A DNA stretch of 64,000 bases. Source: Desulfolutivibrio sulfodismutans DSM 3696. Lineage in GTDB: Bacteria; Desulfobacterota; Desulfovibrionia; Desulfovibrionales; Desulfovibrionaceae. Of the stretch, positions 1,309 to 31,721 are shown in pieces (positions within the stretch are counted from its first letter, which is position 1; each line of letters starts with the position of its first letter). The notes under the pieces were generated by a model. The model was given only the letters and a program-made list of their open reading frames with translations. It was not told where the DNA came from and did not search any database. The stretch is from NCBI RefSeq assembly GCF_013376455.1, contig NZ_CP045504.1:1653501-1717500 (forward strand), given 5' to 3'. The position numbers were made by a program, and so were the translations under genes.

Positions 1309-1317
1309 CCCTGGTCT

Positions 1318-3702: not shown

Positions 3703-6293
3703 GTCCCCATCTTTTCTCCGATCTCGCCGGACGCTGGCGCAGACGCAGGGAACGCCGGGAAGCCGCGGCCCTGGACTGGATCAAGTCCCGCTACCACATT
3801 TTTCGGGTTCTTCTGGCCAACAACGAATCCGCCCTTGCGGCCATGGCCGAGGTGGACGGGCTTGTGAACGAACATGAGACCACCCGGCTGACCGAAACCG
3901 TCCGGACCCTGCTGGAAATGGCGATGGACCTGGTGGACGGTTTGAACAGGCTCACGGAAAACGCCCACCTGGGCCTGTATCCCCGGATCGAAAATCTGGG
4001 CCGCCGACTGGAAAAGGCCCTTGAAAGTTACGGCCGTGCGCCGCGTCGCGTCTGGTTGCCCTTGGAGGACGTCACGGCGGACATGCGCGAACAGGCCGGA
4101 GGCAAGGCCCAGCCCCTGGGCGGACTTCTGCGGGCCGGACTGCCCGTGCCCGCAGGGGTATGCATCACCCGCCGGGCCTGTCGGGAATACCTGCGCCAAG
4201 CCCGTCTGGAGGATCGGCTCAAGGCCCTATTGCGCCAGGCCGCCCTGCCCGGGGCGGATATCGGGGAGGTGTCCTCCCGGGCAAAGGCCATGGTGCTGGC
4301 CTCGGAGCCAACCCCGGAATTCGCCGCCCAGCTTCACGCCGCCTGGGAACATCTGTGTCGGGACTGGCCGCACGGCATGTCCGCGCGCAGCAGCGCCTCG
4401 TCCGAGGATGGCCGGGAGCATTCCTTTGCGGGGCAGTTTGCCAGCGTGCTCGGCGTATCAAGCCCCGAGGCCCTGGTCGGGGCCTTCAAGACGGTCCTGG
4501 CCAGCGCCTTCGCGGCCCGGGCACTGGCCTACCGGATTGGGGCGGGGCTGGCCTCGGAGTCCTTGGACATGGCCGTTTTGTGTCAAAGGATGATCGCGGC
4601 CAGGAGCTCCGGGGTGCTGTTCACCAGGGACCCCATGGATCCGGACGGCGGCCGGATGCTCCTGACCGCCGTGCCGGGACTGGGCACCCAGGCCGTTTCC
4701 GGCCGGGCCGTTGCCGACGTGTACCGGCCGGCCCGGGAGCTCGGCACCGAGCCGACCCGGGACACCCCGGTCGAGATTGCGGAAAAGACCGTCCGGGAGG
4801 TCCTGGCTCCACGCGGCGGCCTGCGCCTGGAGGACGTTCCTGAGGACATGCGCCACGCGGCGCTCCTGGCCCCCGGGCAAATCGAGGCCCTGCGCGGTCA
4901 TGGTCTGCGCATCGAGGCCCTGGCCGGATGTCCTCAGGATATCGAATGGTCCGTGGATGAGGATGGCCGGGTATGGATTCTTCAGGCCCGTCCCGCCCGG
5001 CTGGTTCCGACGGCATCCGGACGGGCCGCCGGGCCCAGTTCCGGCGATGCCGAGCGGGTTCTTCTTGCGGGCGGCGTCGGCGCGTCGCCCGGCCGGGCGG
5101 CGGGATGCCTGTTCACGGCCCGATCCAGGAGCGATCTCGATGCGGCGGCCAGGGCCCAAAGGCCCATCGTGCTGGCCCTGCACCAGAGCCTGGTGGATGC
5201 GGCATCGCTTGTGCCCGAGGTCGCGGCGGTGCTGGTGGACATGGGCAACCCCCTGGACCACCTGGCCGCCCTGTCCCGGGAGCTTGGCATCCCCATGATC
5301 ACCGGCCTTGGGACGGCCACCACGGCGCTTCAACACGGCGAATGGGTGCTGGCCGATGCCGATCGGGGCCTGGTCCTGGCCGCCGATCCGCGCCTGTGGC
5401 GGGACATTTCCCGGCCCGCGTCGCGAACGCCGTCACGGCCAGTCGACGCGGCCGCGAACCTGCGCCGGATGATCCTGCCCCTGAATCTCACCGATGCCTA
5501 TGGCCCCACCTTTTCCATCCAGGAAATCAAAAGCCTGCACGACGTCGTGCGCTACGTCCACGAAAAGGCGGTCATCGCCCTCTTCGAGACCGGGGACGCC
5601 GTGGCCGAACAGACCTTTTCCCTGGTACGACGCCTGCGCGACGGCGCGGGCCTGTCCTTCCTGATCATCGACCTGGGCGGCGGCCTGGTCCCCGGCCGGT
5701 CGGCCACGGTCGGTTCCGAGGACATCCTGTGCGAGCCCCTGGCGGCCCTGTGCCGGGGCATGGCCACGCCGGGATTGCGATGGGGCAAGCCGCCGCCCAT
5801 CCCCGGCGTATCCGGGCTCATATCGCGTTCCATGCTGGATGGGCGCAGCGAACGGCCCGTGGGCAACCCCAACTACGCCCTGGCGGCCAGGGACTACCTG
5901 AACGTCAACGCCCGGGTGGACTATCATTTCGCCATGATCGACGCGGTGTGCGGGGCCAATCCCCGGGAGAACTCCATTCGCTTCCGTTTCAAAGGCGGCG
6001 GCACGGCCAGGGTCCAACGGGAACGACGGGCCCGGTTCGTGGAGGAGGTTCTGCGCGAGGAGGAGTTCTATACCACCCGCCAGGGCGACATGGTCACGGC
6101 CGCGCTCGTGGAGGGGTCACGGGAGACCGTTCAGGACAAGATGGAGATGCTCGGGCGGTTTTTGGGTTTCAGCAGGCTTCTGGATGCGGTCATGATCGAC
6201 GACGACATGCCGGGCCGTGTGGCCCGGGCGTTTCGAGCCGGAGACTATTCCCTGGACGGCCTGGCCGGGATCGCCCCGGGCAACGGGCCGTAA
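3699..6293 (+). CDS. PEP-synthase-like protein with complete ATP-grasp and phosphohistidine domains
   Basis: 864 residues starting with GTG inside the previous stop. Order: helical N-terminus (~25-115); PEP/pyruvate-binding ATP-grasp domain (~120-435) with KAQPLGGLLRAGLPVPAGV, SARSSASSEDG, GVLFTRDPMDPDGG and the closing IEWSVDEDG/LQARP segments; mobile domain (~455-570) with candidate phosphohistidine in NPLDHLAALSRELGIP (His ~521); then the ~290-residue C-terminal domain shared with the two preceding genes (HDVVRYVHEKA, DYHFAMIDA). Genuine PEP synthase and PPDK end in a TIM-barrel that binds PEP/pyruvate. That barrel is not recognisable here, so the acceptor is probably not pyruvate bound in the usual way. 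Family membership is firm; physiological reaction is unknown. Confidence 0.82.
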   Translation: MSPHLFSDLAGRWRRRRERREAAALDWIKSRYHIFRVLLANNESALAAMAEVDGLVNEHETTRLTETVRTLLEMAMDLVDGLNRLTENAHLGLYPRIENLGRRLEKALESYGRAPRRVWLPLEDVTADMREQAGGKAQPLGGLLRAGLPVPAGVCITRRACREYLRQARLEDRLKALLRQAALPGADIGEVSSRAKAMVLASEPTPEFAAQLHAAWEHLCRDWPHGMSARSSASSEDGREHSFAGQFASVLGVSSPEALVGAFKTVLASAFAARALAYRIGAGLASESLDMAVLCQRMIAARSSGVLFTRDPMDPDGGRMLLTAVPGLGTQAVSGRAVADVYRPARELGTEPTRDTPVEIAEKTVREVLAPRGGLRLEDVPEDMRHAALLAPGQIEALRGHGLRIEALAGCPQDIEWSVDEDGRVWILQARPARLVPTASGRAAGPSSGDAERVLLAGGVGASPGRAAGCLFTARSRSDLDAAARAQRPIVLALHQSLVDAASLVPEVAAVLVDMGNPLDHLAALSRELGIPMITGLGTATTALQHGEWVLADADRGLVLAADPRLWRDISRPASRTPSRPVDAAANLRRMILPLNLTDAYGPTFSIQEIKSLHDVVRYVHEKAVIALFETGDAVAEQTFSLVRRLRDGAGLSFLIIDLGGGLVPGRSATVGSEDILCEPLAALCRGMATPGLRWGKPPPIPGVSGLISRSMLDGRSERPVGNPNYALAARDYLNVNARVDYHFAMIDAVCGANPRENSIRFRFKGGGTARVQRERRARFVEEVLREEEFYTTRQGDMVTAALVEGSRETVQDKMEMLGRFLGFSRLLDAVMIDDDMPGRVARAFRAGDYSLDGLAGIAPGNGP

Positions 6294-10317: not shown

Positions 10318-11619
10318 TTACGGCAAAGCCACCTCGGCCAGTTCCGGCCCGAGATACGTCCGTTCGTTTTCACCAAGCACGCCCAGGCTCAAACACAGGA
10401 TGGTCCACAAATGTGTCGTATGCCAGCCGCCATGGTAATGTTCCGACAACTCCTCGATCTGGGCGTGGCAGTTGTGGCAGGGCGTGATCACGTAATCCGC
10501 CTTGGTGGCGATGATCTGTTCGGCCTTGAGTTTGCCGTAGGCCAGCCGGGCATCCTTGTAGCCCGACTGCAGAAACCCCCCGCCGCCGCCGCAGCAGTAG
10601 TTGTTGGAGCGGTTCGGGTGCATGTCCACGAAGTTCTCCTCGCCCACGCAGGCCTTGACCACGAACCGCAGATCCTCCGCAAACGGGTTGCCCATGGACT
10701 TCCGGACGGCCATGCACGGATCCTGCACCGTGAAACGCAGCTTGAGATCCTTGTTCCAGTCCGCGCTTGGGCGAAGCTTCCCCTCGCGAATCCACCGGGC
10801 GTACCAGTTCACGACATGGTCGAACTCGACCCCGGGATCGATGCCAAACTTCTTGAACCCGGCCCAAATGGAATAGAAGGAATGGCCGCATTCGATGTTG
10901 ATCCACGAGGAGCAGCCCAGTTTCTTCATCCCCGCCGCCTGCTTGGCGAGCACCTCCCGCCAGTGGTCGTCCTCGGCCGCGAACATGCAATAGTTCTCCG
11001 CGCCCCAGCCTGCCGTGCCGTACGTCCAGTCCGCCCCGGCCAGATGCAAGATCTTCCACAACGGAACCATCTCGTCGGGCTCCTGCTGCGGCTCCCGGGA
11101 GTTCTGGTTGACGAAAAAATAAGCGCCTTTCTTGTCCACCGGGGCCTGCATGTCCTGGAACCGGGGCTGGGTCTCATGGACCTCCTCCAGAACGTCCCCG
11201 ACCACGAACCGGAAGTCCTCGCTGGAGATACCCACGGCGCTGGCGCCCTCGGTGCGCAAGGCCTGGTTGCAGGAGCCGATGATCCCCTTGGGCTTTTTCT
11301 CGCGCGGCCAACTGGCCCGCAACTGGTAGACCAGGCTCGGGATGTCCACCTGCATGGGGCACGCCGCGACGCACCGGAAGCACATGGTGCACATCCACAC
11401 CCAAGGCGTGGATGTGAGCTCCTCGTCCATGCCCATGACCGCCATGCGCAACAGCTTTCTCGGGTCCATGCCCGCAAGCCCCGTCGCCGGGCAGCCGCTC
11501 GCGCACAGGCCGCAGGTGAGGCACAGGCTCAGGTTGCCGCCCTGGGGCAAAAGCCCGGCCACGGTATCCATGAAGGTCGCCCGGTGGCCACCGTCAAAAC
11601 AAATCTCCGGTCCATTCAT
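10318..11619 (-). CDS. Fused HdrC/HdrB-like iron-sulfur subunit (HdrD-like)
   Basis: 433 residues. The N-terminus is HdrC-like, with two 4Fe-4S motifs: CLTCGLCASGCPA (~34-46) and CTMCFRCVAACP (~78-89). The C-terminal half is HdrB-like. Its last CCG domain is complete (DPC, NYCCGGGGG, ITPCHNC), whereas the earlier one is degenerate (NYCMF, GCSSW, ECGHS) and lacks the Cys-Cys pair. In heterodisulfide reductases, CCG domains bind the unusual cluster that cleaves a disulfide. The start at 11619 has GGGGAG six bases upstream and is preferred to a start 60 bases earlier. It is the last gene of the adh-hdrA-flxDCBA operon, 105 bases after flxA. In described Flx-Hdr clusters HdrB and HdrC are separate. 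Confidence 0.8.
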   Translation of the reverse strand: MNGPEICFDGGHRATFMDTVAGLLPQGGNLSLCLTCGLCASGCPATGLAGMDPRKLLRMAVMGMDEELTSTPWVWMCTMCFRCVAACPMQVDIPSLVYQLRASWPREKKPKGIIGSCNQALRTEGASAVGISSEDFRFVVGDVLEEVHETQPRFQDMQAPVDKKGAYFFVNQNSREPQQEPDEMVPLWKILHLAGADWTYGTAGWGAENYCMFAAEDDHWREVLAKQAAGMKKLGCSSWINIECGHSFYSIWAGFKKFGIDPGVEFDHVVNWYARWIREGKLRPSADWNKDLKLRFTVQDPCMAVRKSMGNPFAEDLRFVVKACVGEENFVDMHPNRSNNYCCGGGGGFLQSGYKDARLAYGKLKAEQIIATKADYVITPCHNCHAQIEELSEHYHGGWHTTHLWTILCLSLGVLGENERTYLGPELAEVALP

Positions 11620-11724
11620 GATCAACTCCCCAGACGTGGCCCTTCCCCCCCAAGGATATCCGACCACGGCTCTTTTCACATGTTGCGTTGGAGACCCTGC
11701 CGACCATTGCCTTCCGAAACGACG

Positions 11725-12564
11725 TCAATACTCCTTCGGCAAGTGGTCCAGCTCCGCCTTGGTGAACACCGGGCCGTCCTTGCAGACCATGTACGGGCCG
11801 ACGTTGCAGCGGCCGCAGATGCCGATGCCGCATTTCATGCGGTTTTCCAGGGACAAAAGGATCTGGTCCGCCTGCCAGCCCAGCTTGTCCAGCACCGGCT
11901 GGGTATACTTGATCATGATCGGCGGGCCGCAGACCAGGGCCACGGCGTTGTCCGGGCTGGGCGCGGCCTGTTCGGTCACCGTGGGCACGAAGCCCACGAT
12001 ACCGTCCCAGCCCTCGGCCGGACGATCCACGGTGATGTGGCAGCGCACGTCATCGCGCCCTTGCCACGCCGTAAGCTCATCCTTGTAGAGCAGCATGCCC
12101 GGGGCGCGCGCCCCGTAGATGAAGGTGATGTCGCCGTACTTCGGGCGGTTTTCCGGGTTGAGCAGCCAGACCATGGTGGCCCGAAGCGTGGTCACGGCGA
12201 AGCCGCCGGCGATGATCACGATGTTTTTGCCCTCGGAGGCGGCCAGGGGATAGCTCTTGCCCAGGGGGCCGCGCACGCCCATGACGTCGCCCGGCTGCAT
12301 GTTGTGGAGTTTCGTGGTCACCACGCCGGTCTTGTTCACCGTGAAGAGCAGCGTGTCGCCCTCGGTGGGGCTGGAGGCGATGCCGATGGGGATCTCGCCG
12401 AGCCCCGCGATGGACAGTTCGGCGAACTGCCCGGGCTCGTAGCGAAACGCAGCGGCGTCTTCCTTGTTTTCGAACGAGAGCCAGTAGGAACGCAAATTCT
12501 TGTCTTCGGTCTCCACGCGCACATCGGCGATGCGCACGGGATACGGCAGATAGGGATTGTTCAT
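11725..12564 (-). CDS. flxA: FlxA-like FAD/NAD(H)-binding oxidoreductase subunit
   Basis: 279 residues of the ferredoxin-NADP reductase/PyrK fold. An FAD-binding beta-barrel domain (~1-100; GQFAELSIAG, GIASSPTEGD) is followed by a nucleotide-binding domain (~110-230; IVIIAGGFAVTTLRA, VCGPPIMI). A C-terminal cysteine cluster (CGIGICGRC...VC, ~245-260) is the 2Fe-2S site as in PyrK and NfnA. In the described Flx-Hdr complex this subunit takes electrons from NADH. The ATG overlaps the TGA of flxB (ATGA), so the subunits are made together. Confidence 0.87.
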   Translation of the reverse strand: MNNPYLPYPVRIADVRVETEDKNLRSYWLSFENKEDAAAFRYEPGQFAELSIAGLGEIPIGIASSPTEGDTLLFTVNKTGVVTTKLHNMQPGDVMGVRGPLGKSYPLAASEGKNIVIIAGGFAVTTLRATMVWLLNPENRPKYGDITFIYGARAPGMLLYKDELTAWQGRDDVRCHITVDRPAEGWDGIVGFVPTVTEQAAPSPDNAVALVCGPPIMIKYTQPVLDKLGWQADQILLSLENRMKCGIGICGRCNVGPYMVCKDGPVFTKAELDHLPKEY

Positions 12565-13619
12565 TTGCTTTTTGCCTCCACATCCTCGCCCATGCGCCGC
12601 ACCACCTCGCGCACGTCTATGTTTGTCGGACAGAAGCGGACGCACCGGCCGCAGCCCACGCAGCCCAGCTCACCGTCCCGCCGCATGGGAATGTACGTGA
12701 ACTTGTGCATGAAACGCTGGCGCACCCGGTCGCGCTTTTCGCCGCGCGGGTTGTGCCCCGAGGCGTGCTCGGTGAAAAGCTTCTGCATGCAGGAGTCCCA
12801 GTTGCGGACCCGTCGTCCCGCCTCGCCCCTGACCTCATCCTGGATGTCGAAACAGTGGCAGGTGGGGCACACGAAGGTGCATGTGCCGCAGTTGAGGCAG
12901 GTCTCGTAAAGGCTCGACCACAGCGGCAGGTCGTAGATGTCGAGCACCGTGCGTCCGGCCAGTTTCTTCGGCTCGAAGCCAGGATACGTCTTCACGGCGG
13001 CCTCGGAGGCGGCCATGATCTTCCCGGCCAGGTCGATGTCCCCGGGCGCGGCCTCGGGCAGATCCTTGACCATGGCCAGCCCCTTGCCGCTTATGGGCTT
13101 GACCAGAAGCCGGTCGCCCAGGTCCGTCAGCAGGATGTCCAGCCCATCCTCGTGGAAGGGACCGCACCCGACGGAGGTGCAAAAGCACTCCGGGCAGGGA
13201 TTGACGCAGCCCTGGCCGATCAGGATGGTTTTTTCCCGCTTGTCGCGCCAGTAGGGGTCGTTGGTCATGTCGTCCTGCACGAAGATGCGGTCCAGGAGCC
13301 GGAAGGCCTTGGCGTCGCAGGGCCGGATGTTCAGGAGCACCCGTTGCGTGGCCAGGGGCGCGACCGGAACCATGACCCGGCCGCCCTCCCCTTCGGCGTT
13401 CTTGAAGCGCATCAGGCATTCGCTCTGGGGAAAAAAGAACTCCTTGGGCGACATGTCCGTGTTGTCCAGACGCCAGTCCACGTCTGCGGCGCTATGCATC
13501 GGGGCCCAGACGATCTTCCCGGATTTTTGGGCCGGGGCATAGACCTCCCGCCCTTGCGCGAGGCTGCCAAAGAAGCCCTCAAAGGCGTTTTTGCCGAGTA
13601 TTTTGTATGCCGTGATCAT
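12561..13619 (-). CDS. flxB: FlxB-like 4Fe-4S dicluster subunit
   Basis: 352 residues. It resembles the beta subunit of sulfhydrogenase and AsrA of anaerobic sulfite reductase. A long N-terminal region contains a Cys-rich segment (GCVNPCPECFCTSVGCGPF, ~136-154); two C-terminal ferredoxin motifs follow, CLNCGTCTFVCP (~242) and CVGCGRCVRFCP (~322). It would carry electrons between FlxA and the rest of the complex in the cytoplasm. It overlaps both neighbours by four bases (ATGA junctions). Confidence 0.85.
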   Translation of the reverse strand: MITAYKILGKNAFEGFFGSLAQGREVYAPAQKSGKIVWAPMHSAADVDWRLDNTDMSPKEFFFPQSECLMRFKNAEGEGGRVMVPVAPLATQRVLLNIRPCDAKAFRLLDRIFVQDDMTNDPYWRDKREKTILIGQGCVNPCPECFCTSVGCGPFHEDGLDILLTDLGDRLLVKPISGKGLAMVKDLPEAAPGDIDLAGKIMAASEAAVKTYPGFEPKKLAGRTVLDIYDLPLWSSLYETCLNCGTCTFVCPTCHCFDIQDEVRGEAGRRVRNWDSCMQKLFTEHASGHNPRGEKRDRVRQRFMHKFTYIPMRRDGELGCVGCGRCVRFCPTNIDVREVVRRMGEDVEAKSK

Positions 13620-14599
13620 TGCTCACCGCCCTGCTTGATGAAGTCGTCGGAATCGTCCGGCCGGAAGGAGGCCATGGGCGGGACGGCCTGCACATCCATG
13701 CCCGCCGAGTAGCCATAGAGCTCCCGGATGTCCTTCTCGATCTTGGAGGTCAGCCGCCGCATCTTGAGGCCCTGGGGACAGGCCGACTCGCAGGCCCCGC
13801 AGTCCGTGCAGCGCCCGGCGCAGTGAAAGGCCCGCATCAGGTGGAACGAGGTGATGTCCGTCATATCCTGGGTCTTTCCCAGCCACTGCGGCCTGGCGTC
13901 GTCCACGAAGCAGGTCTTGCAGTAGCACAGGGGGCAGGCGTCGCGGCAGGCGTAGCAGCGGATGCAGTCCTGGAAGGTTTCGCGGAAGCGGGCCCACCGA
14001 TCCGCCGCCGGGAATTTTTCCCAGGGTGCGGCGACCTTGTCGATGTCGCCGCCGCCGGTCTCCGCCGTGGGCTCGGCCGCCAGTTCGTCGGCCAGAACGG
14101 GGTTGCGGTGCTGGCAGGTGAAACAGTTGTCGCGCAACAGTTCCTTGCGTTTCAGGCGTTTTTCAAAGCCCCGGCCGCGCACCACCAGTTCCTCGCCGTC
14201 CTCCTCCACGGTCTCCACCCGCCGCCCCTCGGAGCGGGCGACCTGGGCCTCAACCTTGCGGAAGTCGACCATGCCCAGGCAGGGCACGCCGATGACCACG
14301 ACCTTGTCGCGCTGCACCTGCTTCTCCACGATGAGCCCGACCACATTGCGGCTGGCGCACCCCTGGGCGACCACCCCGGCCCGTTCTCCCGCCCGGGCGA
14401 CCTGGACCAGGGATTTCGCCGTGTTCCCCACGCAGAAGCTCGACCAGGTCAACTGGTCGGCCTGCTCGGGGGTTCGGGCGAAAAAGGGCTGTTCACGCAT
14501 GGGGGAAGTGCCCCTGGCGTAGCCGATGACCACATCCACCTTGCCCTCGTGGAGCAGGCGTTTGGCAATTTCCCGTATTTTTTCGGTTCGCGCTTTCAT
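13616..14599 (-). CDS. flxC: FlxC-like iron-sulfur subunit
   Basis: 327 residues. The N-terminal part resembles FrhB/FdhB-type subunits (IGYARGTSPMREQPFF; QGCASRNVVGLI; VIGVPCLGMVDFRKV; NCFTCQHRNP). Two ferredoxin-type motifs follow: CIRCYACRDACPLCYC (~213-228) and CTDCGACESACP (~266-277). It starts inside the flxD stop (TGATG) and its stop overlaps flxB, giving continuous coupling through D-C-B-A. Role by family: electron transfer between the NADH-oxidising module and Hdr. Confidence 0.85.
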   Translation of the reverse strand: MKARTEKIREIAKRLLHEGKVDVVIGYARGTSPMREQPFFARTPEQADQLTWSSFCVGNTAKSLVQVARAGERAGVVAQGCASRNVVGLIVEKQVQRDKVVVIGVPCLGMVDFRKVEAQVARSEGRRVETVEEDGEELVVRGRGFEKRLKRKELLRDNCFTCQHRNPVLADELAAEPTAETGGGDIDKVAAPWEKFPAADRWARFRETFQDCIRCYACRDACPLCYCKTCFVDDARPQWLGKTQDMTDITSFHLMRAFHCAGRCTDCGACESACPQGLKMRRLTSKIEKDIRELYGYSAGMDVQAVPPMASFRPDDSDDFIKQGGEQ

Positions 14600-15069
14600 C
14601 AGATCACCTTCCGCAATTCCATGACCATGGTCTTGGTGGCGGCAGTCGCCGCATCGACAGGCCCAAGCGCCCGCACCGCCTCAATGACGTCCTTGGCCGT
14701 GCGCTGGAATTTTTCCGCCTCGGCCGAGGATATCCAGGAAAAGTGCAGCCTCCCCGGATCCAGCCCGGCGTATTCCAGAAGCTCCCTGAGCATGGTGAAG
14801 CGACGCCGGGCATACATGTTTCCTGCGATGTAGTGGCAGTCGCCGGGATGGCAGCCCGACACCCAGACGCCGTCGGCCCCTTGCCGGAAGGCATGCAGGA
14901 CGAATTCGGGGTTCATCCGGCCCGTGCAGGGCAGGCGCACCACCCGGAAATCGGCCGGGTACTGGAGCCGGTTCACGCCGGCCAGATCCGCGCCGCCGTA
15001 GGTGCACCAGTTGCAGAAAAACGCTGCAATGCGCGGCCTGAAGCCAGTATTTTCAATGCACTCGTTCAT
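14599..15069 (-). CDS. flxD: FlxD, MvhD/HdrA-linking iron-sulfur protein
   Basis: 156 residues. It carries the diagnostic MvhD pattern: FFCNWCTYGGADLAGVNR (~18-35), VRLPCTGRM (~44-52) and GCHPGDCHYIAGN (~72-84). The cysteines bind a 2Fe-2S cluster. In methanogens MvhD passes electrons from hydrogenase to HdrA; here it would link FlxABC to the double HdrA encoded 69 bases upstream. Confidence 0.92.
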   Translation of the reverse strand: MNECIENTGFRPRIAAFFCNWCTYGGADLAGVNRLQYPADFRVVRLPCTGRMNPEFVLHAFRQGADGVWVSGCHPGDCHYIAGNMYARRRFTMLRELLEYAGLDPGRLHFSWISSAEAEKFQRTAKDVIEAVRALGPVDAATAATKTMVMELRKVI

Positions 15070-15138: not shown

Positions 15139-18100
15139 CTAGAAGAGCGCCGTTATCTGGGCCATGACCTCCGTCTTGGCGAAGCCGCGCAGATTGGGCG
15201 CGCCGGAGCGGCACGACCCAACGCAGGTGCCGCAGCCCTTGCACAAAACCTCGTTGACCTTGGCCATCCCCTTTTCGTCCGGGCTGATGGCCCCGTACGG
15301 GCAGATCTCCCAGCACAGGCCGCAGCCGGTGCAGCGGGCAGTGTCGATGGAGGCCACCGTGCCCGGTGTGGTGATCTCTTTCTTGGACAGGACCGTGACT
15401 GCCCTGGCTGCGGCAGCCTGGGCCTGGGCGATGGATTCCTCCACCGGCTTGGGATAGTGGGCCATGCCGGCCATGAACACGCCGTCTGTTGCGAAGTCCA
15501 CGGGCCGAAGCTTCTGATGGGCCTCAAAAAGCCAGCCGTCGGAATCCAGCGGGATCTTGAACATCTTGGCCAGGGCCTCGTTGTCGGTGGGCTCGATGGC
15601 CGCCGCCAGGCTGACCACGTCGGCGGCGAAGACAAGGTCGATATCCAGGATATGATCCCTGACCGTGACCTCGACCACGGGCCCCTTGGGCTTGACCTTG
15701 GGCTTGTTGTCCAGGCTGTAGCGGACAAAGATCACGCCGAGTTTCCGGGCCTTGGCATAGAGCTCCTCCCGGTCGCCGTAGGTGCGCATGTCCCGATAGA
15801 GGATGGCCACCCGGCAGTGGGGGTTTTTCTCCTTGAGGGCGATGGCGGACATGACCGCGTGGGTGCAGCACACCCGGGAGCAATACGGTCTGTCCGGCTC
15901 CCGGGAGCCCACGCACTGGATGAACACCACGCAGTGCGGCTCGGCGCCCGAGGCCAGGGCCCGTTCAAATTCCAGATGCGTCATGACCCCGGGGTGCTTG
16001 CCGTAGGCGTACTCGGTCGGTCTGCTTTCCCGGGCCCCGGTGGCGATGACCGCCGCGCCGTGCTCGATCACCTTCTCGCCTTCGGGCGTGCTCAGGGTGG
16101 TCTTGAAGTTGCCGACAAAGCCCTCGGCGACCTTGACCTCGGCCGGGGCATGCACCGTGATCCGGGGATCGGCCGCGATCTTGAACCGAAGCTCGGCCAA
16201 GAACGCGGCGATGTCGCCGCCCTTGGCCGTATGGCTTAAGAAGCGGGCGTTGCCGCCCAGTTCGGCCTGCCGCTCCACGATGTGCGTGGGGAAGCCCTGG
16301 CGCGCCAGTTCCAGGGCCGCAATCATGCCCGCCACGCCGCCGCCGATGACCAGGGCCACGGGGTTGATGGACAGTTTGGGTTCGGACAGGGGCGCAAGCA
16401 GCATGGCCTTGGCCACGGCCATGCGCACCAGATCCTTGGACTTCTCGGTGGCCTTGTCGGGTTCGTGGCCATGCACCCAGGAGGCCTGGTTGCGGATGTT
16501 GGCCATCTCGAACAGGTATTTGTTGAGTCCCGCCGCCTCCATGGTCTCCTGGAACAAAGGCTCATGGGTGCGCGGGGTGCAGGCCGCCACCACGATGCGG
16601 TTTAAGCCCTTTTCCCGGATGACCTCGGCCATCTTGTCCTGCACGTCCTGGGAACAGGTGAACATGTTGTTGGCCGTAAAGACCACGCCGGGCAGGGTCG
16701 CGGCGTATTCGGTCACCGCCTTCACATCCACCACCCCGGCGATGTTCGAGCCGCAGGAGCAGATGAACACGCCCACACGGGGGGGTTCGCCGGCCACGTC
16801 CACGGCCGCGACGGACTCGGGCGTTCGCGTCAGGGCGCCGCGCGCCGCAGCCAGATCGCCGCCAGCGCAGCAGGCCGCCGCGCTGGCGGCCACCACCGAC
16901 TGGGGAATGTCTTTGGGGCCGTCAAAGGCGCCGCAGACGTAGATGCCCTTGCGGCTGGCGGCCACTGGGGTGAAGTCGGAACATATGGCGAAGCGGTGTT
17001 TGTCCAGTTCGATGCCCGCGCCCCCGGCCAGAGCCTGGGCGTCCTTGGGAGCCGTCAGTCCCACGGACAGGATCACCATGTCGAAGAGTTCCACGATCTC
17101 CTGCCCGGATTCGTCCACATAGCGCACGCTCACGCCCTTGCCTTCGGGGCCAGGCACGAAGGAATGCGGCCTGGCGCGCAAAAAGCGCACTCCCTTGGCC
17201 TTGGCGTCCTCGTAGCCGCGCTCGAAGTTCTTGCCGTGGGTGCGCATGTCCATGAAAAAGATCGACTGTTCCAACTTGCCCGAGGAGTGCTCTGCGGACA
17301 TGACCGCCTGCTTGATGGCGTACATGCAGCAGACGCTGGAGCAATAGCCGTTGTCGCAGGCGTTTTGGGAGCGCGATCCCACGCACTGAAGCCAGGCGAT
17401 CTTTTTGGGCTCGGCATGGTCCGACGGCCGCGCCAGATGGCCCAGGAAGGGGCCGGAGGCGGAGAGGATGCGTTCGTATTCCAGGCTGGTGACCACGTCC
17501 GGGATGGCGGTGTAGGCGAAAGACGCCAGACCGGAGGGATCAAAGGCCGCAAACCCCGGGGCCAGGATGATCGCGCCGACATGGACGTCGATCATCTCTT
17601 CCCTGTCATTGAAATTGATGGCCCCGGCCGGACAGTACTTTTCGCAGGCCCGGCATTTGCCCTTCTGGATGTAGATGCAGTTGTCGCCGTCAATGGCGTA
17701 TTTCAGGGGAACGGTCTGGCCGTAGATGATGTAGGCCGCTTTGCGCATGTCGAGTCCGGCGTTGAACTCGTTTTTCACCTTCTTGGGACACTTCTCCGCG
17801 CACAGGCCGCAGGCGATGCACTTCGTGACGTCCACGTAGCGCGGCTTCCGGCGCAGATGCGCGGTAAAGTTCCCCACCTCGCCCGTGACATCCACCAATT
17901 CGGTCAGCGTCATGAGCTCGATGTTCATGTGACGCCCGCATTCGACCAGTTTCGGCGAGAGAATGCACATGGCGCAGTCGTTGGTTGGAAAGGTTTTGTC
18001 CAACTGGGCCATGGTCCCGCCGATACCCGGGCTTTTCTCCACGAGGTAGACGAGGTAGCCGGAGTTGGCGAGATCAAGCGCCGACTGGATGCCAGCGATG

Positions 18101-18171
18101 CCTCCTCCGACGACCATCACCGCGCCAACGATGTCCTTGGCTCGATTTAACTCTTTGTTTTCGCTAATCAT
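15139..18171 (-). CDS. hdrA: HdrA-type flavin/iron-sulfur subunit, tandem double HdrA
   Basis: 1010 residues from the ATG at 18171, preferred to a start 117 bases earlier because AGGAA precedes it and homology begins there. It contains two HdrA-like halves. Half 1: FAD motif GGGIAG (~22), ferredoxin motifs CIACGLCAEKCP (~118) and CRACEKYC (~173), and QCVGSR...CCM. Half 2: the CSCGSNI domain (~471), FAD motif GGGVAG (~610), QCVGSREPDRPYCSRVCC, and C-terminal motifs CTGCGLCWEICP (~947) and CKGCGTCVGSC (~977). Half 1 lacks its own CSCG domain. HdrA carries the flavin that bifurcates or confurcates electrons. It lies between the alcohol dehydrogenase gene and flxD. Confidence 0.88.
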   Translation of the reverse strand: MISENKELNRAKDIVGAVMVVGGGIAGIQSALDLANSGYLVYLVEKSPGIGGTMAQLDKTFPTNDCAMCILSPKLVECGRHMNIELMTLTELVDVTGEVGNFTAHLRRKPRYVDVTKCIACGLCAEKCPKKVKNEFNAGLDMRKAAYIIYGQTVPLKYAIDGDNCIYIQKGKCRACEKYCPAGAINFNDREEMIDVHVGAIILAPGFAAFDPSGLASFAYTAIPDVVTSLEYERILSASGPFLGHLARPSDHAEPKKIAWLQCVGSRSQNACDNGYCSSVCCMYAIKQAVMSAEHSSGKLEQSIFFMDMRTHGKNFERGYEDAKAKGVRFLRARPHSFVPGPEGKGVSVRYVDESGQEIVELFDMVILSVGLTAPKDAQALAGGAGIELDKHRFAICSDFTPVAASRKGIYVCGAFDGPKDIPQSVVAASAAACCAGGDLAAARGALTRTPESVAAVDVAGEPPRVGVFICSCGSNIAGVVDVKAVTEYAATLPGVVFTANNMFTCSQDVQDKMAEVIREKGLNRIVVAACTPRTHEPLFQETMEAAGLNKYLFEMANIRNQASWVHGHEPDKATEKSKDLVRMAVAKAMLLAPLSEPKLSINPVALVIGGGVAGMIAALELARQGFPTHIVERQAELGGNARFLSHTAKGGDIAAFLAELRFKIAADPRITVHAPAEVKVAEGFVGNFKTTLSTPEGEKVIEHGAAVIATGARESRPTEYAYGKHPGVMTHLEFERALASGAEPHCVVFIQCVGSREPDRPYCSRVCCTHAVMSAIALKEKNPHCRVAILYRDMRTYGDREELYAKARKLGVIFVRYSLDNKPKVKPKGPVVEVTVRDHILDIDLVFAADVVSLAAAIEPTDNEALAKMFKIPLDSDGWLFEAHQKLRPVDFATDGVFMAGMAHYPKPVEESIAQAQAAAARAVTVLSKKEITTPGTVASIDTARCTGCGLCWEICPYGAISPDEKGMAKVNEVLCKGCGTCVGSCRSGAPNLRGFAKTEVMAQITALF

Positions 18172-18340
18172 CAGTCTCAATTCCTCCCCGCGGATTGGTC
18201 CGTGTCCGAAGAAAAAACATCCGCATCCGCACAGGCCGCCAAAGGGTGCTTTTTCGTGTGGGCGGCATGTATCGCAAGAATCCGTCATGCGTGGCCGGTT
18301 CCTGCGCCAGGGCGCAGGAACCGGCCGTATCCGGCGTGTG

Positions 18341-19393
18341 TTAGGAGAAGATGATCATCGGCTTGATCACGTTGTCTTCCTTGTTGGCCATGATGCGGAA
18401 GCCCTTTTCGATGTCGGCGAAGGGCAGGCGATGCGTGGTCAACTTCGTGGGATCAATGCGTCCGGTCTGGATGAGCCGCAGCAGACGGCCCATGCGCTCG
18501 CTGCCGCCGGGGCAAAGCCCGGTGCGGATGGTCTTGTCGGCCATGCCGTAGCCCCATTCGACGCGGGGAATCTTCACGTACTCGCCCTTGCCATGGTAGC
18601 CGCAGTTGGAAATCACGCCGCCGGGCCGGGTGGCCTTGACGCAGTTCTCGAAGGTGGCCTGCATGCCCAGACATTCGATGGCGGTGTCCACGCCCTGGCC
18701 GCCGGTCAGGCGCTTGATCTCGGCCACGGCGTCGACCTTGCTGAAGTCCACGATCACGTCCGCGCCGTAGTACTTGGCCAACTCCTGCCGCTGGGGCACG
18801 CTTTCCACGGCGATGATCAGTCCCGCGCCCAAAAGCCGCGCCCCGGCGGTGGCCATAAGCCCCACCGGGCCCTGGCCGAAGACGGCCACGCTGCCGCCCA
18901 GGGGGGTGTTGCCGTGTTCCGCGCCCATAAATCCCGTGGCCATCATGTCCGTGGTGTACAGGGCCGCCTCGTCGGTGACGTCGTCGGGCACCTTGACCAG
19001 GTTGGCGATGGCGTCATTGACATGGAAATATTCCGCGAAGGAACCGTCCTTGATGTTGGCGTATTTCCAGCCGCCGCAGGCCTCACCGCACTGGGACGTA
19101 AAGCCGCGCAGGCAGTTCTCGCATTTGTAGCACGGGGTGATGGCGTTGACCACACAACGGTCGCCAACCTTGAACCCGGTCACCGCACTGCCGATCTTGT
19201 ACACGACGCCACCGGCTTCATGTCCCAAGGTGAGATTTTTTCTGTCGCCGATGGCTCCCCCGACGGTGTGTACATCGGAGGTGCAAATGAGCGCGCTTGT
19301 CGTCTTGAGAATGACATCATTTGGACCTGGCTCAGGAATGGGCTTGTCGATGATGCCAACCTTTCCAATGCCTAGCATGACGAATGCCTTCAT
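18341..19393 (-). CDS. Zinc-type secondary alcohol dehydrogenase, TbADH-like
   Basis: 350 residues, similar throughout to the Thermoanaerobacter brockii secondary alcohol dehydrogenase (GLCPGGSERM, WKYANIKDGSFAEYFHVND). Catalytic zinc ligands are visible as Cys37 (CTSD), His58 (GHE) and Asp149 (TTDMM). Rossmann motif is GQGPVGLM. At the end of the second strand it reads AVESV where TbADH has GSR for the NADP phosphate; an acidic Glu there predicts NAD(H) preference. ATG at 19393 follows GGAGG. First gene of the minus-strand adh-hdr-flx operon, so NADH made here could feed FlxA. Confidence 0.88.
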   Translation of the reverse strand: MKAFVMLGIGKVGIIDKPIPEPGPNDVILKTTSALICTSDVHTVGGAIGDRKNLTLGHEAGGVVYKIGSAVTGFKVGDRCVVNAITPCYKCENCLRGFTSQCGEACGGWKYANIKDGSFAEYFHVNDAIANLVKVPDDVTDEAALYTTDMMATGFMGAEHGNTPLGGSVAVFGQGPVGLMATAGARLLGAGLIIAVESVPQRQELAKYYGADVIVDFSKVDAVAEIKRLTGGQGVDTAIECLGMQATFENCVKATRPGGVISNCGYHGKGEYVKIPRVEWGYGMADKTIRTGLCPGGSERMGRLLRLIQTGRIDPTKLTTHRLPFADIEKGFRIMANKEDNVIKPMIIFS

Positions 19394-19554: not shown

Positions 19555-19570
19555 TGCAAATTGAAGGCCA
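19555..19570 (-). promoter_or_regulatory. Sigma-54 promoter for the adh-hdr-flx operon
   Basis: The minus strand reads TGGCCTTCAATTTGCA, with GG and GC exactly ten bases apart and a good TTGCA -12 element (consensus TGGCAYRNNNNTTGCW). A transcript would start near 19543, about 150 bases before the alcohol dehydrogenase ATG. Confidence 0.6.
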
Positions 19571-19715
19571 TCGCCCGGCAAATTCCTCGCCGCCTGGCGA
19601 ACGAGACCGCCCTCGGCACGAATAACCCTGAAAAATCAAGCTGATAATCGGAAGTAATTCTCCACGTCCCGCCCCGGGGCGGACCCGTCCCCTCCGCAAT
19701 CCGGCTCGGAGGCGA

Positions 19716-19758
19716 GTCATAATGACCCCATCGCGCGTCCCGCCTGGGTCATAATGAT
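19716..19758. promoter_or_regulatory. Paired activator-site palindromes shared by two divergent sigma-54 promoters
   Basis: GTCATAATGAC (19716-19726) and GTCATAATGAT (19748-19758) are two copies of one palindrome with centres 32 bases apart, about three helical turns. They lie roughly 150-190 bases from each of the sigma-54 promoters at 19555 and 19892, the usual distance for NtrC-family enhancer sites. The obvious candidate to bind them is the regulator at 22522. Confidence 0.6.
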
Positions 19759-19891
19759 ATGCCCCGCCGGAAACGGGCGGGGACCGGCCTCCGGGCCGAT
19801 TCGAGGCGGCCGCGCCAAAAGGCCCGGCATCCCTGGAAAGACTCTGGCCTGAGGCCGCCACGCCGGGGTCCGCAGGCCCGGGAAGGCCGGA

Positions 19892-19907
19892 TGGCATCTA
19901 TCATGCA
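19892..19907 (+). promoter_or_regulatory. Sigma-54 promoter for the iron-ADH/kinase/regulator operon
   Basis: TGGCATCTATCATGCA has GG and GC ten bases apart, matching TGGCAYRNNNNTTGCW at all but a few positions. The expected transcript start is near 19919, giving a leader of about 240 bases before the ATG at 20162. Confidence 0.6.
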
Positions 19908-20161
19908 GAAAAAGGATTGCTCATGAGACGGGGAACGGGGCCGGAGAACGCGGAAAGACGCGGACACGGCTGATTCGGGACGGCCCGCCAGCCATCTGGT
20001 CATGGCACATGGCGACGGGCCGTCTTGACTCACTCCACAGCCGGGGGGTATTTGGAAATCCTGGAGTTTTCCCCTTCCGCCTGGCGACGCGTCCGACACT
20101 TTCGCCTTTCTCCTTGGAGCAACATGCGTTTTGCAGCAGCGAACCAAACGAAAAGAGGCGT

Positions 20162-21304
20162 ATGGACATTTTCAAATTTGCCGTTCCAGAGCTCATTTTC
20201 GGCCGAGGCAGCCTGAAATACACGGGGATATGCGCCAAACGCCTCGGGGCCGCCAAGATATTCGTCGTCTCCGACCCCGGCGTCGAGGCGGCCGGATGGA
20301 CGCAACAGCTTTTCGAGCTGCTTGGCGAGGAACACCTGGACTACGTCTATTTCAACGATGTGGTCGCCAACCCGCGCGACTATCAGGTGCAGCGGGGGGC
20401 CGAGCTGTACAGGAGGGAGGGTGCCGACGTGGTCCTGGCCTTGGGCGGGGGCAGCCCCATGGACGCGGCCAAGGGCATCGCCCTGGTGGTCTCAAACGGC
20501 GGAAAGATCCGGGACTACGAAGGGGCCAACCAGGTCAAGCGGCCCCTGCCGCCCATGGTCTTCGTGCCCACGACCATGGGCAGCGAGTCCAACATCTCGC
20601 AATTCACGGTCATCTCCGACGTGGAGCGCCGCCTCAAGATGACCCTGATCAGCCGGACCCTGGTTCCGAACATCTCCATCACCGATCCGCTGCTCCTTAC
20701 GACCATGACCCGCGACTTGGTCATCCCGCCCCTGTTCGATTCCCTGGCCCACGCCGTGGAATCCTACGTGTCGCCCATCGCCAGCCCGTTCACCGAGGTC
20801 ATGAGCCTGCGCGGCCTGGATCTGCTCATCCGGCATATCCGCAACGCCATAAACACGCTGCACATCGACGACCTGGAGCAGTTGGCCGTGGCCGGTTCCT
20901 GGTCGGGCATGGCCTTCACCAACGCCAGCGTGGGTCTGGGGCACGCCCTGGCCCACGCCCTGGGCGGCATGTACGACATTGTGCACGGCATGGCCCACGC
21001 CCTGCTCCTGCCCCACGTCATGCGCTACAACCTCGGGGTGAGCCTGAAAAAGATGGCCAAGATCGGGACCATCCTCACCGGCCGGACCCTGGCCGACGAC
21101 GAAGAGACGGCGCTTTTCGGCATTGAGATGGTGGAGCAGCTGCGCGAGGAGTTCGGCCTGCCGTCACGGCTGCGCGAGATCCTCCCGGACAAGACCAAGC
21201 TGCCCCAGGTCAGCCGCAACGCCGTCAACGACATCTGTCTCCTGACGAATCCGCGTCCGGCGACATGGAAGGATATTCTCAACATCTACTACGAGGCATG
21301 GTAA
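20162..21304 (+). CDS. Iron-containing alcohol dehydrogenase
   Basis: 380 residues, a standard length for group III alcohol dehydrogenases. It has the nucleotide-binding GGGSPMDAAKGIAL segment (~96-109), PTTMGSESNISQF, and metal-ligand histidines in LAHAVESYVSP and GLGHALAHALGGMYDIVHG. The family oxidises primary alcohols or reduces aldehydes with NAD(P)H and Fe(II). ATG at 20162 (AGAGG upstream) matches the usual N-terminus (FKFAVPELIFGRGSL). Its stop overlaps the start of the kinase gene (TAATG). Divergent from the adh-hdr-flx operon. Confidence 0.92.
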   Translation: MDIFKFAVPELIFGRGSLKYTGICAKRLGAAKIFVVSDPGVEAAGWTQQLFELLGEEHLDYVYFNDVVANPRDYQVQRGAELYRREGADVVLALGGGSPMDAAKGIALVVSNGGKIRDYEGANQVKRPLPPMVFVPTTMGSESNISQFTVISDVERRLKMTLISRTLVPNISITDPLLLTTMTRDLVIPPLFDSLAHAVESYVSPIASPFTEVMSLRGLDLLIRHIRNAINTLHIDDLEQLAVAGSWSGMAFTNASVGLGHALAHALGGMYDIVHGMAHALLLPHVMRYNLGVSLKKMAKIGTILTGRTLADDEETALFGIEMVEQLREEFGLPSRLREILPDKTKLPQVSRNAVNDICLLTNPRPATWKDILNIYYEAW

Positions 21305-22512
21305 TGCCGCATCCCACGAGCCTTGACGAAATCATCGGCATCGAATCGATCAAGCTCGGTTTTTTCAAGGAAGTACAACAGACCATCAGCGAGCTCCGGG
21401 CTTCCAACATCGAACTCGAGCAGAAGCGCCAGGACATCCAGGCCATCTTAAACGGCATCCCCGACGTGATGGCCGTGCTTACGCTTGACTATGAAATCCT
21501 CTCGGTCAACAACGCCTTTCACGAACGCTACCCCGGCGTGAAACCCTGCGGCAAGACCTGCCATCAGATCTTCAAGGGCCAGGGCACGCCCTGCCCGCAC
21601 TGCTCCCTGACCCAGGCCATGGAGGGCGCGGGCCGGGTCTGCCGCCACCTGGAGCTCATGGTCTTTCATGGCGAAAAAAGGCAGATCGAGTGTACGGCCT
21701 CGCTCATGCGCGACGCCCACGGCAACCCCAACCGGGTCATCCTCCTGCAACGCGACGTGACCCTGGAAAAGCAGTACCAGGCGCAATATCTCCAGGCCGA
21801 GCGCATGGCCACCATCGGCGTTCTGGCCGAGGGCGTGGCCCATGAGATCAACAACCCCCTCACCAGCATCAGCGGTTTCGCCGAGGCCATGGCCCACCGC
21901 ATGGAAAAGCTGGCCATGTGTCCGGATCAGGACAGCATTGCCCCGGAATTCATGGAACTCTTCGGGGAATATCTGGAAATCATCCTCAAGGAATGCAACC
22001 GGTGCTCGGAGATCGTGCGCAACCTGTTGACCTTCGGGCATCGCGATGTCCGCGCCTATTCCATCGTGGACCTCAACGACGTGGTCCACAACTGTCTGCA
22101 ACTGCTGCATCCGCGTCTGTCCCGCCTGCCCCGGGGGGTGATCAAGCTGCATCTCTCGGAAAAACAGCCCTACGTCCTGGGGCACCCGGGCGAACTCATG
22201 CAGGTCATCCTCAACCTCGTGCTCAACGCCCTGTACGCCGTCATGGAATCCGGGGAGATCGCCATCCACACCGCCGTGGAGGGCCGTCTGGTCCTGCTTC
22301 GGGTCATCGACACCGGACACGGCATCCCAAAGGAGATCCTGGACAAACTCTTCGATCCTTTTTTCACGACCAAACCGGCGGGCCAAGGCATAGGCATCGG
22401 GCTGTCCACATGCTACAACATCATAAAAAACCATGGCGGCGAGATCTCCGTCGACAGCACCTATACCGAAGGCGCCTGTTTTGAAACCGTCTTGCCGTAT
22501 TGCGTGGAATGA
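21304..22512 (+). CDS. PAS-domain sensor histidine kinase (cytoplasmic, NtrB-like)
   Basis: 402 residues with no membrane segment. An N-terminal coiled coil (~15-45) is followed by a PAS domain (~50-165) carrying a cysteine set CGKTCHQIF...CPHC, then HisKA with phospho-acceptor His in GVAHEINNPLTSISG (~180). The HATPase domain has N-box NLVLNALYAV, DTGHGIP and GIGIGLST. Cysteines arranged this way could sense redox state or hold a metal or haem; this is inference. ATG at 21304 overlaps the ADH stop and GAGGC precedes it. Ten bases separate it from its partner regulator. Confidence 0.88.
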   Translation: MPHPTSLDEIIGIESIKLGFFKEVQQTISELRASNIELEQKRQDIQAILNGIPDVMAVLTLDYEILSVNNAFHERYPGVKPCGKTCHQIFKGQGTPCPHCSLTQAMEGAGRVCRHLELMVFHGEKRQIECTASLMRDAHGNPNRVILLQRDVTLEKQYQAQYLQAERMATIGVLAEGVAHEINNPLTSISGFAEAMAHRMEKLAMCPDQDSIAPEFMELFGEYLEIILKECNRCSEIVRNLLTFGHRDVRAYSIVDLNDVVHNCLQLLHPRLSRLPRGVIKLHLSEKQPYVLGHPGELMQVILNLVLNALYAVMESGEIAIHTAVEGRLVLLRVIDTGHGIPKEILDKLFDPFFTTKPAGQGIGIGLSTCYNIIKNHGGEISVDSTYTEGACFETVLPYCVE

Positions 22513-22521
22513 GGTCGGCCT

Positions 22522-23964
22522 ATGCACGCCCCCGACATCATCAACATCCTTGTGGTGGACGACGAATCCTCCATTTGCAAGCTCATCCAAAAGGAGCTGT
22601 CCTCACCGGGCCGCGCCATCACGACCGCCACATCCGCCAGCCAGGCCCTGAAGCTGGCGGCGCAGCACCCCTTCGACGTCATCGTGCTGGATGTCCGCCT
22701 GCCGGACGGCAACGGCGTGGATTTGCTGGAATACTTCAGGGAGACCCTGCCCCATGTGGAAGTGATCATGATCACCGGCTATTCCGAGGTCTCAAGCGCC
22801 GTGGAGGCTATGAAGATCGGGGCCTACGACTACATCACCAAGCCCTTTTCCCTGGACCGGCTGACCCTGGTCATCGAGCGCGCCTACCAGCGCTCCATGC
22901 TGCACAAGGAACTGCACCTTCTGCGGCAAAACAAGGGCAGCGAGCCCTTCTCCCATCTCATCGGCCACTCCACGGCCATTTCGGAGATCCGCTACCTCAT
23001 CGACAAGGTCGCCCCCACCCTCACCCCGGTGCTCATCACCGGGGAAAGCGGCGTGGGCAAAAACGTGGTGGTCAACGCCCTGCACCGCAGGAGCAACCGG
23101 GCCGACAAGCACTTAATCGTCAAGAACTGCGGGGCGTTTAACAAGGAACTGTTGCGCAGCGAACTGTTCGGCTACTGCAAGGGGGCCTTCACCGGCGCGG
23201 TCGACTCCCAGGACGGCCTGTTGTCCCTGGCCAACAACGCCTCCCTGTTCTTCGACGAGGTGGGGGAGCTCTCCCTGGAGGTGCAGTCCATGCTCCTGCG
23301 CGTCCTGGAGTCCCAGAAGTACCGCCGGGTGGGCGACAAGGAGGAGCGTAGCGCCAATATCCGCTTTTTCTTCGCCACCAACCGCGACCTGCACAAGGAG
23401 GTCGAGGCGGGACGCTTCCATGAGGCCTTGTACCACCGCCTCAACGTCTTCCGCATCGAGATTCCGCCCCTGCGCGAGCGCCGGGAGGACATTCCCGTGC
23501 TGATGGAGCTTTTTCTCGGGCAGCTCTATCCGGATCGCCCGCCCTACCGGGTGTCCAGCCAGGCCTTGCAGTGCCTGATGTCCTACCATTGGCCGGGCAA
23601 CGTCCGCGAGCTGCGCAACGTCATCGAACGCGGCATCATCCTGGCCGAGAACGATCTGATCACCCTGAAATGCCTGCCCAACGACATCGCCAAATGCCTG
23701 GACGACACGGCCAACGGCCTGCCCTTCCCCACCCTGGAGCAGCACGAGCGGGAGTTCATCGTGCGGGTGCTCGAATACGTGTCCAACAACCGGACCCAGG
23801 CGGCCAGCATGCTCGGCATCGGGCGCAAGACCCTGTACCGCAAGATCAAGGAATACGGCCTGGACATGGTCTGCCAGAACGGTCGCCCTGAGGGCGGCGC
23901 CGTGGCCGCCGAGAACCGCCCGTCGCGGAAAACAGGTTGCGGCGACGGACCCGGCGTGCCGTGA
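22522..23964 (+). CDS. NtrC-family sigma-54-dependent response regulator
   Basis: 480 residues: receiver (1-125; acceptor Asp in VIVLDVRLPDGNG), AAA+ domain with Walker A GESGVGKN, the sigma-54 contact loop GAFTGA, Walker B FFDEVGEL and the RxDLYHR-type sensor (HEALYHRLNVF), and a C-terminal Fis-type helix-turn-helix (NNRTQAASMLGIGRKTLYRKI, split here as a ~20-residue segment) near 435-460. It is the partner of the kinase at 21304. It probably activates the two divergent sigma-54 promoters at 19555 and 19892 through the central palindromes, which would also make it autoregulatory. Confidence 0.93.
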   Translation: MHAPDIINILVVDDESSICKLIQKELSSPGRAITTATSASQALKLAAQHPFDVIVLDVRLPDGNGVDLLEYFRETLPHVEVIMITGYSEVSSAVEAMKIGAYDYITKPFSLDRLTLVIERAYQRSMLHKELHLLRQNKGSEPFSHLIGHSTAISEIRYLIDKVAPTLTPVLITGESGVGKNVVVNALHRRSNRADKHLIVKNCGAFNKELLRSELFGYCKGAFTGAVDSQDGLLSLANNASLFFDEVGELSLEVQSMLLRVLESQKYRRVGDKEERSANIRFFFATNRDLHKEVEAGRFHEALYHRLNVFRIEIPPLRERREDIPVLMELFLGQLYPDRPPYRVSSQALQCLMSYHWPGNVRELRNVIERGIILAENDLITLKCLPNDIAKCLDDTANGLPFPTLEQHEREFIVRVLEYVSNNRTQAASMLGIGRKTLYRKIKEYGLDMVCQNGRPEGGAVAAENRPSRKTGCGDGPGVP

Positions 23965-24012: not shown

Positions 24013-24120
24013 CCCCGCCTGTCGTATCCTTGTGACCCGGCCCCCTCGGATCCCAGGGAAATGGCCGGGACGCAGGCCCAGGTCGGCTTGCAGGCGAAAA
24101 CGCCATGCCGCATGGAAAAT

Positions 24121-31705: not shown

Positions 31706-31721
31706 AGCAACAGATGTGCCA
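31706..31721 (-). promoter_or_regulatory. Sigma-54 promoter of the molybdenum hydroxylase operon
   Basis: The minus strand reads TGGCACATCTGTTGCT, a full match to TGGCAYRNNNNTTGCW. Transcription would begin near 31694, about 205 bases before the DMT transporter ATG. Confidence 0.78.

Follow-up and report, generated by a model that had tools for sequence, protein, structure and literature searches.

A predicted tandem-dyad enhancer between divergent sigma-54-like promoters at an alcohol dehydrogenase locus of Desulfolutivibrio sulfodismutans and its recurrence in related genomes

Can one enhancer switch two operons that run away from each other, when one of them encodes the regulator proposed to bind it? 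The question is raised by an intergenic region of Desulfolutivibrio sulfodismutans DSM 3696, studied here within a stretch of 64,000 nucleotides (the window; all coordinates refer to it). A sequence-only reading had placed two divergent sigma-54 promoters in this region with two palindromes nearly midway between them, and all four elements are present as described.

The leftward operon, on the minus strand, begins with a zinc-type alcohol dehydrogenase gene (Zn-ADH, 18341–19393; PF00107, PF08240), whose ATG at 19391–19393 is preceded by GGAGG. Six further minus-strand genes follow: an HdrA-like flavin/Fe-S protein (15139–18288; PF07992, Fer4; start codon uncertain), an MvhD/FlpD-like, FlxD-like subunit (14599–15069; PF02662), an FrhB N-terminal/ferredoxin-type subunit (13616–14599; PF04422, Fer4), a 4Fe-4S subunit of sulfhydrogenase beta-like type (12561–13619; PF17179; ShyB/HydB models below cut-off), a FlxA-like NAD-binding oxidoreductase (11725–12645; PF00175, PF10418; start codon uncertain), and an HdrBC/HmcF-like protein with Fer4 and cysteine-rich CCG domains (10318–11679; PF02754, PF13183; start codon uncertain), for which HmcF is the best model, below its cut-off. 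HdrA2 and HdrA are the top models for the 15139–18288 product, both below cut-off. At 1049 residues this protein is very long and several NAD/FAD-binding families match it twice; it apparently consists of two HdrA-type halves. The rightward operon, on the plus strand, contains an ErcA-like iron-containing alcohol dehydrogenase (FeADH, 20162–21304; PF00465, PF25137), a PAS histidine kinase (21265–22512; PF08448, PF00512, PF02518) whose gene overlaps that of the FeADH by 40 bp, and the proposed enhancer-binding protein (22522–23964; PF00072, PF00158, PF02954). The latter is classed as an NtrC-type response regulator from its receiver, its AAA+ sigma-54 domain with a GAFTGA loop (residue 221) and its Fis-type helix-turn-helix. 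A Pfam search of the genome found a single sigma-54, RpoN.

Each operon is preceded by a sigma-54-like −24/−12 promoter. The minus-strand site, TGGCCTTCAATTTGCA, lies before the Zn-ADH/flx-hdr operon at 19555–19570 (read from 19570 to 19555; score 5.2), and the plus-strand site, TGGCATCTATCATGCA, lies before the FeADH-kinase-regulator operon at 19892–19907 (score 4.9), both scored with a weight table based on the literature. Both contain the GG and GC elements at the correct spacing within a TGGC-N7-[TA]TGC context, the plus promoter having ATGC in place of TTGC. The window holds 18 sigma-54-like sites scoring at least 4.5, so a lone site carries little weight. When the intergenic region was simulated 2000 times with a first-order model, 26 of the sequences contained a site scoring no lower than the minus promoter, and 1 contained an outward-facing pair 200–450 bp apart. 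Two further strong sites are found elsewhere in the window, both on the minus strand: TGGCACATCTGTTGCT at 31706–31721 (score 6.1) and TGGCATCCGACTTGCA at 55516–55531 (score 5.6).

Between the promoters lie two dyads, to which no strand is assigned: dyad 1, GAGTCATAATGACCC, at 19714–19728 (21.6 bits) and dyad 2, GGGTCATAATGATAT, at 19746–19760 (18.4 bits). Their palindrome cores, GTCATAATGAC at 19716–19726 and GTCATAATGAT at 19748–19758, are 32 bp apart from start to start, and the dyad consensus is GGGTCA-N3-TGACCC. The symmetric matrix used for scoring was built from 46 sites (23 pairs) taken from other genera only, with the genus of the window left out. It ranks dyads 1 and 2 first and second of all positions in the 64-kb window, and the pair scores 40.0 bits, versus a best score of 21.2 bits in 6 Mb of simulated sequence (30 × 200 kb). 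The single 10-mer GTCATAATGA, found at 4 places in the 4.44-Mb genome versus 2 for its reversed control, was rejected as evidence.

NtrC-type upstream activating sequences are typically situated 80–200 bp from the promoter. Measured from the −24 ends, the centre of the dyad pair is 167 bp from the minus promoter and 155 bp from the plus promoter. Distances to the single dyad centres span 139–183 bp; the sequence-only reading gave about 150–190 bp. With tandem dyads in helical phase (32 bp), at 155 and 167 bp from the promoters and conserved, the elements at 19714–19728 and 19746–19760 have the sequence properties of an upstream activating sequence and are predicted to form a tandem enhancer.

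The third-best dyad of the window (24024–24038, 14.4 bits) is located 60 bp past the regulator gene, a position at which several relatives carry a dyad pair. Sites of this class are expected 0.63 times per 64 kb and no counterpart of at least 9 bits was found in L086 and L087, the loci of genomes G069 and G041; the dyad is therefore taken as a relic or a chance match. An IHF-like site, AATCAAGCTGATA, is tentatively assigned at 19634–19646 on the plus strand, between the minus promoter and the enhancer. It matches WATCARxxxxTTR with one mismatch, has one mismatch in G069 too, and sits inside a block conserved at 14 of 16 positions. A site of this kind appeared in 303 of 2000 simulations, and it is thus weak taken alone.

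The congener G069 has the same two gene rows in divergent orientation, and its intergenic DNA is 52% identical to that of the window. Within this diverged sequence the minus promoter is identical at 15 of 16 positions, dyad 1 at 13 of 15 and dyad 2 at all 15, and the spacer between the dyads at 5 of 17. The plus promoter is identical at 12 of 16 positions, and all four changes fall at spacer positions 8–11. These positions are dispensable for a sigma-54 promoter. As far as sequence comparison can judge it, the sequence-only reading is supported.

The tandem pair is not confined to this genus. It recurs in other genera at loci of the homologous FeADH, kinase and NtrC-type regulator, and also in Desulfomicrobium- and Syntrophobacteraceae-labelled contigs. 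With the spacing left free between 20 and 60 bp, all fetched sequence contained 60 distinct pairs of at least 20 bits, one further pair at a locus edge having been dropped. A spacing of 31–34 bp was found in 44 of the 60, and 41 of these 44 have an outward sigma-54 site (score at least 4.4) at 150–195 bp; the three lacking one in range are in L009, L202 (13080) and L060. Among random points in the loci, 209 of 20,000 had such a site. The matrix was trained on 23 of these 44 pairs, which makes their motif strength partly circular; the sigma-54 distances are independent of that training. Fetching by regulator homology gave 40 loci, drawn from the regulator search list, some of them also covered by shorter or other stretches. 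Fifteen of them contain a pair of at least 20 bits, in every case with the promoter (15/15). The fetched stretch holds no such pair in the other 25; for a number of these the reason is that it does not reach the adh-hdr operon. When the stretch upstream of the adh-hdr operon was identified by gene order (L194–L197), all four loci had a pair of 25.3–27.6 bits together with a sigma-54 site in range. At L197 the site in range does not face the adh gene but points the other way, and the site directed at that gene is at 282 bp. A search of 288 family genomes with a loose paired pattern was set aside: 97 of the 288 matched, and among 30 loci returned, a pair of at least 20 bits was found in 1 and a sigma-54 site in range in 2, those linked to alcohol dehydrogenase and those ended by TGACCC/GGGTCA having been chosen by eye. 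Near its FeADH triad one genome (G235) carries three dyad pairs (L207 at 3353 and 5380, L139 at 4187), and two of the three are each accompanied by a separate sigma-54 site.

The genes behind the pair differ from one genome to another. The promoters in relatives precede alcohol dehydrogenase-hdr-flx, aldehyde:ferredoxin oxidoreductase or molybdenum-type aldehyde oxidoreductase genes. The pair stands beside Fer4/aldehyde:ferredoxin oxidoreductase genes in G041, G120 and G090 (G041 and G090 also have a B12 radical SAM gene there). In G131, G021, G095 and G233 the regulator lies on one side of it and a second FeADH, with hdr-flx behind, on the other; in L006, L008, L011 and L017 it is flanked by FeADH genes that diverge; and in G272 and G280 it is found upstream of molybdopterin-type aldehyde oxidoreductase genes. 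In the window genome itself, no enhancer was found within 1.5 kb of any of the three aldehyde:ferredoxin oxidoreductase genes. A close Zn-ADH homologue (E ≤ 1e-90) is present in 2 of the 11 genomes with close regulator homologues, its own genome included; as a neighbour the Zn-ADH is unusual, which the dyad pair is not.

Which protein would bind the dyads? Coordination by the 22522 regulator, as the sequence-only reading proposed, agrees with the distribution of the pair, which occurs together with homologues of this regulator in different genera and beside differing neighbour genes and was found near only 1 of 67 distant homologues (37–45% identity), there without a promoter. The dyads could instead be bound by another regulator, for example of the CRP/FNR type. 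Short palindromes are common to many regulator families, and in the stretches fetched for G272 and G280 the pair was found and a homologue of the regulator was not. Such a binder is nevertheless improbable in view of the distribution just described and of the tandem, promoter-distal layout, which is typical of sigma-54 enhancers. The recognition helix points the same way: a pair of at least 20 bits occurs at 13 of 18 loci whose regulator has LGIG and at 2 of 22 with LGIS or LGIC, a count confounded by coverage because the adh operon is often outside the fetched stretch in the latter group. Among L222–L261, LGIG regulators go with strong GGGTCA dyads and LGIS/LGIC regulators with weak or absent ones; a specificity change between the two types is possible. 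Genus g26 has second regulator copies (L240, L244, L246 and L249) that follow hdr-flx and a kinase; the triad FeADH is absent there.

It is considered likely that the dyads are a shared upstream activating sequence, from which the 22522 regulator, bound to both, would activate both promoters, its own included. The sequence shows which elements are present, how well they are conserved, what spacing they follow and which genes adjoin them; from this we infer that the 22522 regulator is the binder, that it is phosphorylated and loops the DNA, that the FeADH has a sensing role, and what the inducer is. In the proposed mechanism, alcohol would be sensed via the FeADH-kinase pair, the FeADH probably making the signal for the kinase, and the PAS kinase (21265) would phosphorylate the regulator (22522). 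The regulator would then bind both GGGTCA-N3-TGACCC dyads on the same face of the DNA, three helical turns apart, and loop to sigma-54 RNA polymerase at the two outward-facing promoters. Leftward, the Zn-ADH and flx-hdr operon would be turned on, so that alcohol is oxidized and electrons pass to NAD-, flavin- and Fe-S-based carriers. Rightward, the FeADH-kinase-regulator operon would be raised, a positive autoregulation.

The rightward branch is the part of this mechanism on which the relatives are divided. Both promoters of the window lie at the distances seen in relatives, which fits the earlier suggestion that one pair could switch both operons; the two-sided layout itself is restricted to 2 of the 60 pairs, those of the window and G069, and the remaining 58 have one in-range sigma-54 site or none. 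It may be argued, then, that the enhancer serves the Zn-ADH/flx-hdr promoter only, that FeADH, kinase and regulator are transcribed from an ordinary sigma-70 promoter, and that the plus site is a chance match or a relic. The scarcity of two-sided pairs is in line with this. So are G041 and G120, in which the pair adjoins the FeADH without a sigma-54 site on that side; in G041, a congener, the FeADH side has a sigma-70-like TTGACA-17-TAAAAT, read by eye. The window has, moreover, a block in the FeADH leader (20023–20066, TTGACT ... TATTTGGA ... CCTGGA) that is identical to G069 at 34 of 44 positions and contains TTGACT..TATTTG; this block may be a leader element or a sigma-70 promoter of low strength. 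Against these points, the 12 positions of the plus site outside its spacer are all unchanged in G069, within surroundings of 47% identity, its distance recurs (154–157 bp) at four other pairs, and a sigma-70 scan from the dyads to the FeADH start gave no match. The FeADH triads of four g22 genomes, at 4 of 7 loci inspected, are each preceded by a separate sigma-54-like site located at −107 to −171, and dyads are found upstream of it. A sigma-70-only rightward operon is regarded as unlikely, and activation of both promoters from the shared dyads is retained as the preferred reading.

Other relatives place the pair differently with respect to the FeADH. A pair and promoter lie several kb upstream and point toward the FeADH in G090, G263, G264 and G286, and directly before it in G275. 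In Solidesulfovibrio alcoholivorans (L005), the dyads beside the FeADH have decayed to one 13.0-bit site (5431). About 5 kb upstream of the FeADH there is a 17.8-bit dyad (482–496) with a sigma-54 site (657–672) some 170 bp away, after which Fer4/aldehyde:ferredoxin oxidoreductase genes (842–3751) run toward the FeADH. This strong upstream dyad is single, and the arrangement resembles an enhancer relocation. Autoregulation through the pair is not general, since in G041 and G120 the FeADH side lacks a sigma-54 site. On present evidence, the feeding of the regulator operon from an enhancer common to a divergent enzyme operon is a lineage-specific step.

The earlier description of the rightward genes as an iron-ADH/kinase/regulator operon holds for its gene content; the role of the FeADH may be other than that of a second bulk enzyme. 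Of the 40 loci obtained through regulator homology, 36 have the FeADH gene next to kinase and regulator. Among NCBIfam models, ErcA, an ADH-like regulatory protein, ranks first for all seven triad FeADHs tested (that of the window and six others) and for none of four catabolic FeADHs, for which L-threonine dehydrogenase ranks best (4/4). On the strength of this gene order and family rank, the triad FeADH may be an alcohol-sensing partner of the kinase. The likeness to ErcA is one of rank, not of family membership, because the curated cut-off is not reached (395.9 bits for the window FeADH on NF041833, versus 550) and catabolic FeADHs score slightly higher on this model (416–420 bits, versus 381–414 for triad FeADHs). 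These scores would also fit a plain catabolic alcohol dehydrogenase that is induced along with kinase and regulator and has no sensing role, as would GGGSPMD and the Asp/His residues in the sequence, which are typical of the Fe-ADH metal site. That alternative has a substantial chance of being right, somewhat short of even, with the adjacency to kinase and regulator and the rank order speaking for a sensor. To our knowledge, the output of ErcA and its kinase ErcS does not pass through a sigma-54 enhancer.

Several known systems resemble parts of this locus. In Pseudomonas aeruginosa, ErcA is described as the presumed source of the signal that the kinase ErcS receives in ethanol signalling (PMC7427536). 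As there, an iron-type alcohol dehydrogenase here shares an operon with a sensor kinase and alcohol oxidation genes would be under control; output there is via AgmR, and the window FeADH falls below the ErcA cut-off. The closest known case is the response regulator DVU2394 of D. vulgaris Hildenborough, reported to regulate DVU2405–2397, comprising alcohol dehydrogenase and heterodisulfide reductase (Rajeev 2011, PMC3333781), a target listed elsewhere as DVU2405–2399 (Kazakov 2015, PMC4641369). Compared by published description, both regulators are of NtrC type and tied to control of a sigma-54-dependent alcohol dehydrogenase-heterodisulfide reductase operon (predicted here); like the DVU2394 adh-hdr regulon, the window locus has a regulator homologue together with a sigma-54 promoter that precedes adh and hdr/flx genes. 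The DVU2394 site is described as a direct repeat found only in the Hildenborough and Miyazaki strains (PMC3333781), whereas the site here is two tandem dyads found in many genera. The locus differs from that system also in having an alcohol dehydrogenase of zinc type, a divergent arrangement and one enhancer facing two promoters. In the g10 genomes G105 and G075, tandem near-copies of GTCATTTTGCCAC lie about 190 bp before a sigma-54 site, and the g10 gene order adh-hdr-flx-FeADH-HK-RR fits the DVU numbering; these copies could be the published direct repeat, and are plausibly a degenerate form of the dyads. A GxFTGA variant was tried as a label for D. vulgaris-like genomes and proved not to be discriminating.

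At the D. vulgaris orp locus, divergent sigma-54 operons are controlled by the enhancer-binding protein DVU2106 together with IHF, and DVU2106 itself is transcribed from a sigma-70 promoter (PMC3897727); it is a single-component regulator (PMC4641369). The window shares with orp two divergent sigma-54 operons and one enhancer-binding protein (both predicted here), and an IHF site between enhancer and promoter, functional at orp and only IHF-like in the window. Unlike orp, it has other genes, another type of regulator and the regulator gene behind one of the sigma-54 sites. The tandem-dyad motif was not named in the literature searched, a body that most subscription papers fall outside. The parts of the locus are of known kinds; what is new is the code of tandem dyads, how broadly it occurs, and a two-sided layout that would be autoregulatory.

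Taken across the Desulfobacterota, the dyads with a sigma-54 promoter about 155–190 bp away may form a portable cis-module, read by an ErcA-like dehydrogenase/kinase/regulator sensor and placed before differing enzymes, to which the lineage of the window would have added a second promoter and hence positive feedback; this wider proposal is tentative, though it comes close to an even chance. Under it, a regulator whose site was published from two strains would command a regulon that spans the family, is open to testing and is marked by a clear DNA code, and enzyme modules would be swapped behind a fixed enhancer. In the window, a single enhancer set between two sigma-54 promoters would be a compact natural example of such an arrangement, with the supply of the regulator itself depending on one of the two. 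In a laboratory evolution experiment on syntrophy, lines are reported in which selection favoured loss-of-function mutations in DVU2394 (PMC8319347), and the switch may therefore bear on the choice of electron donor.
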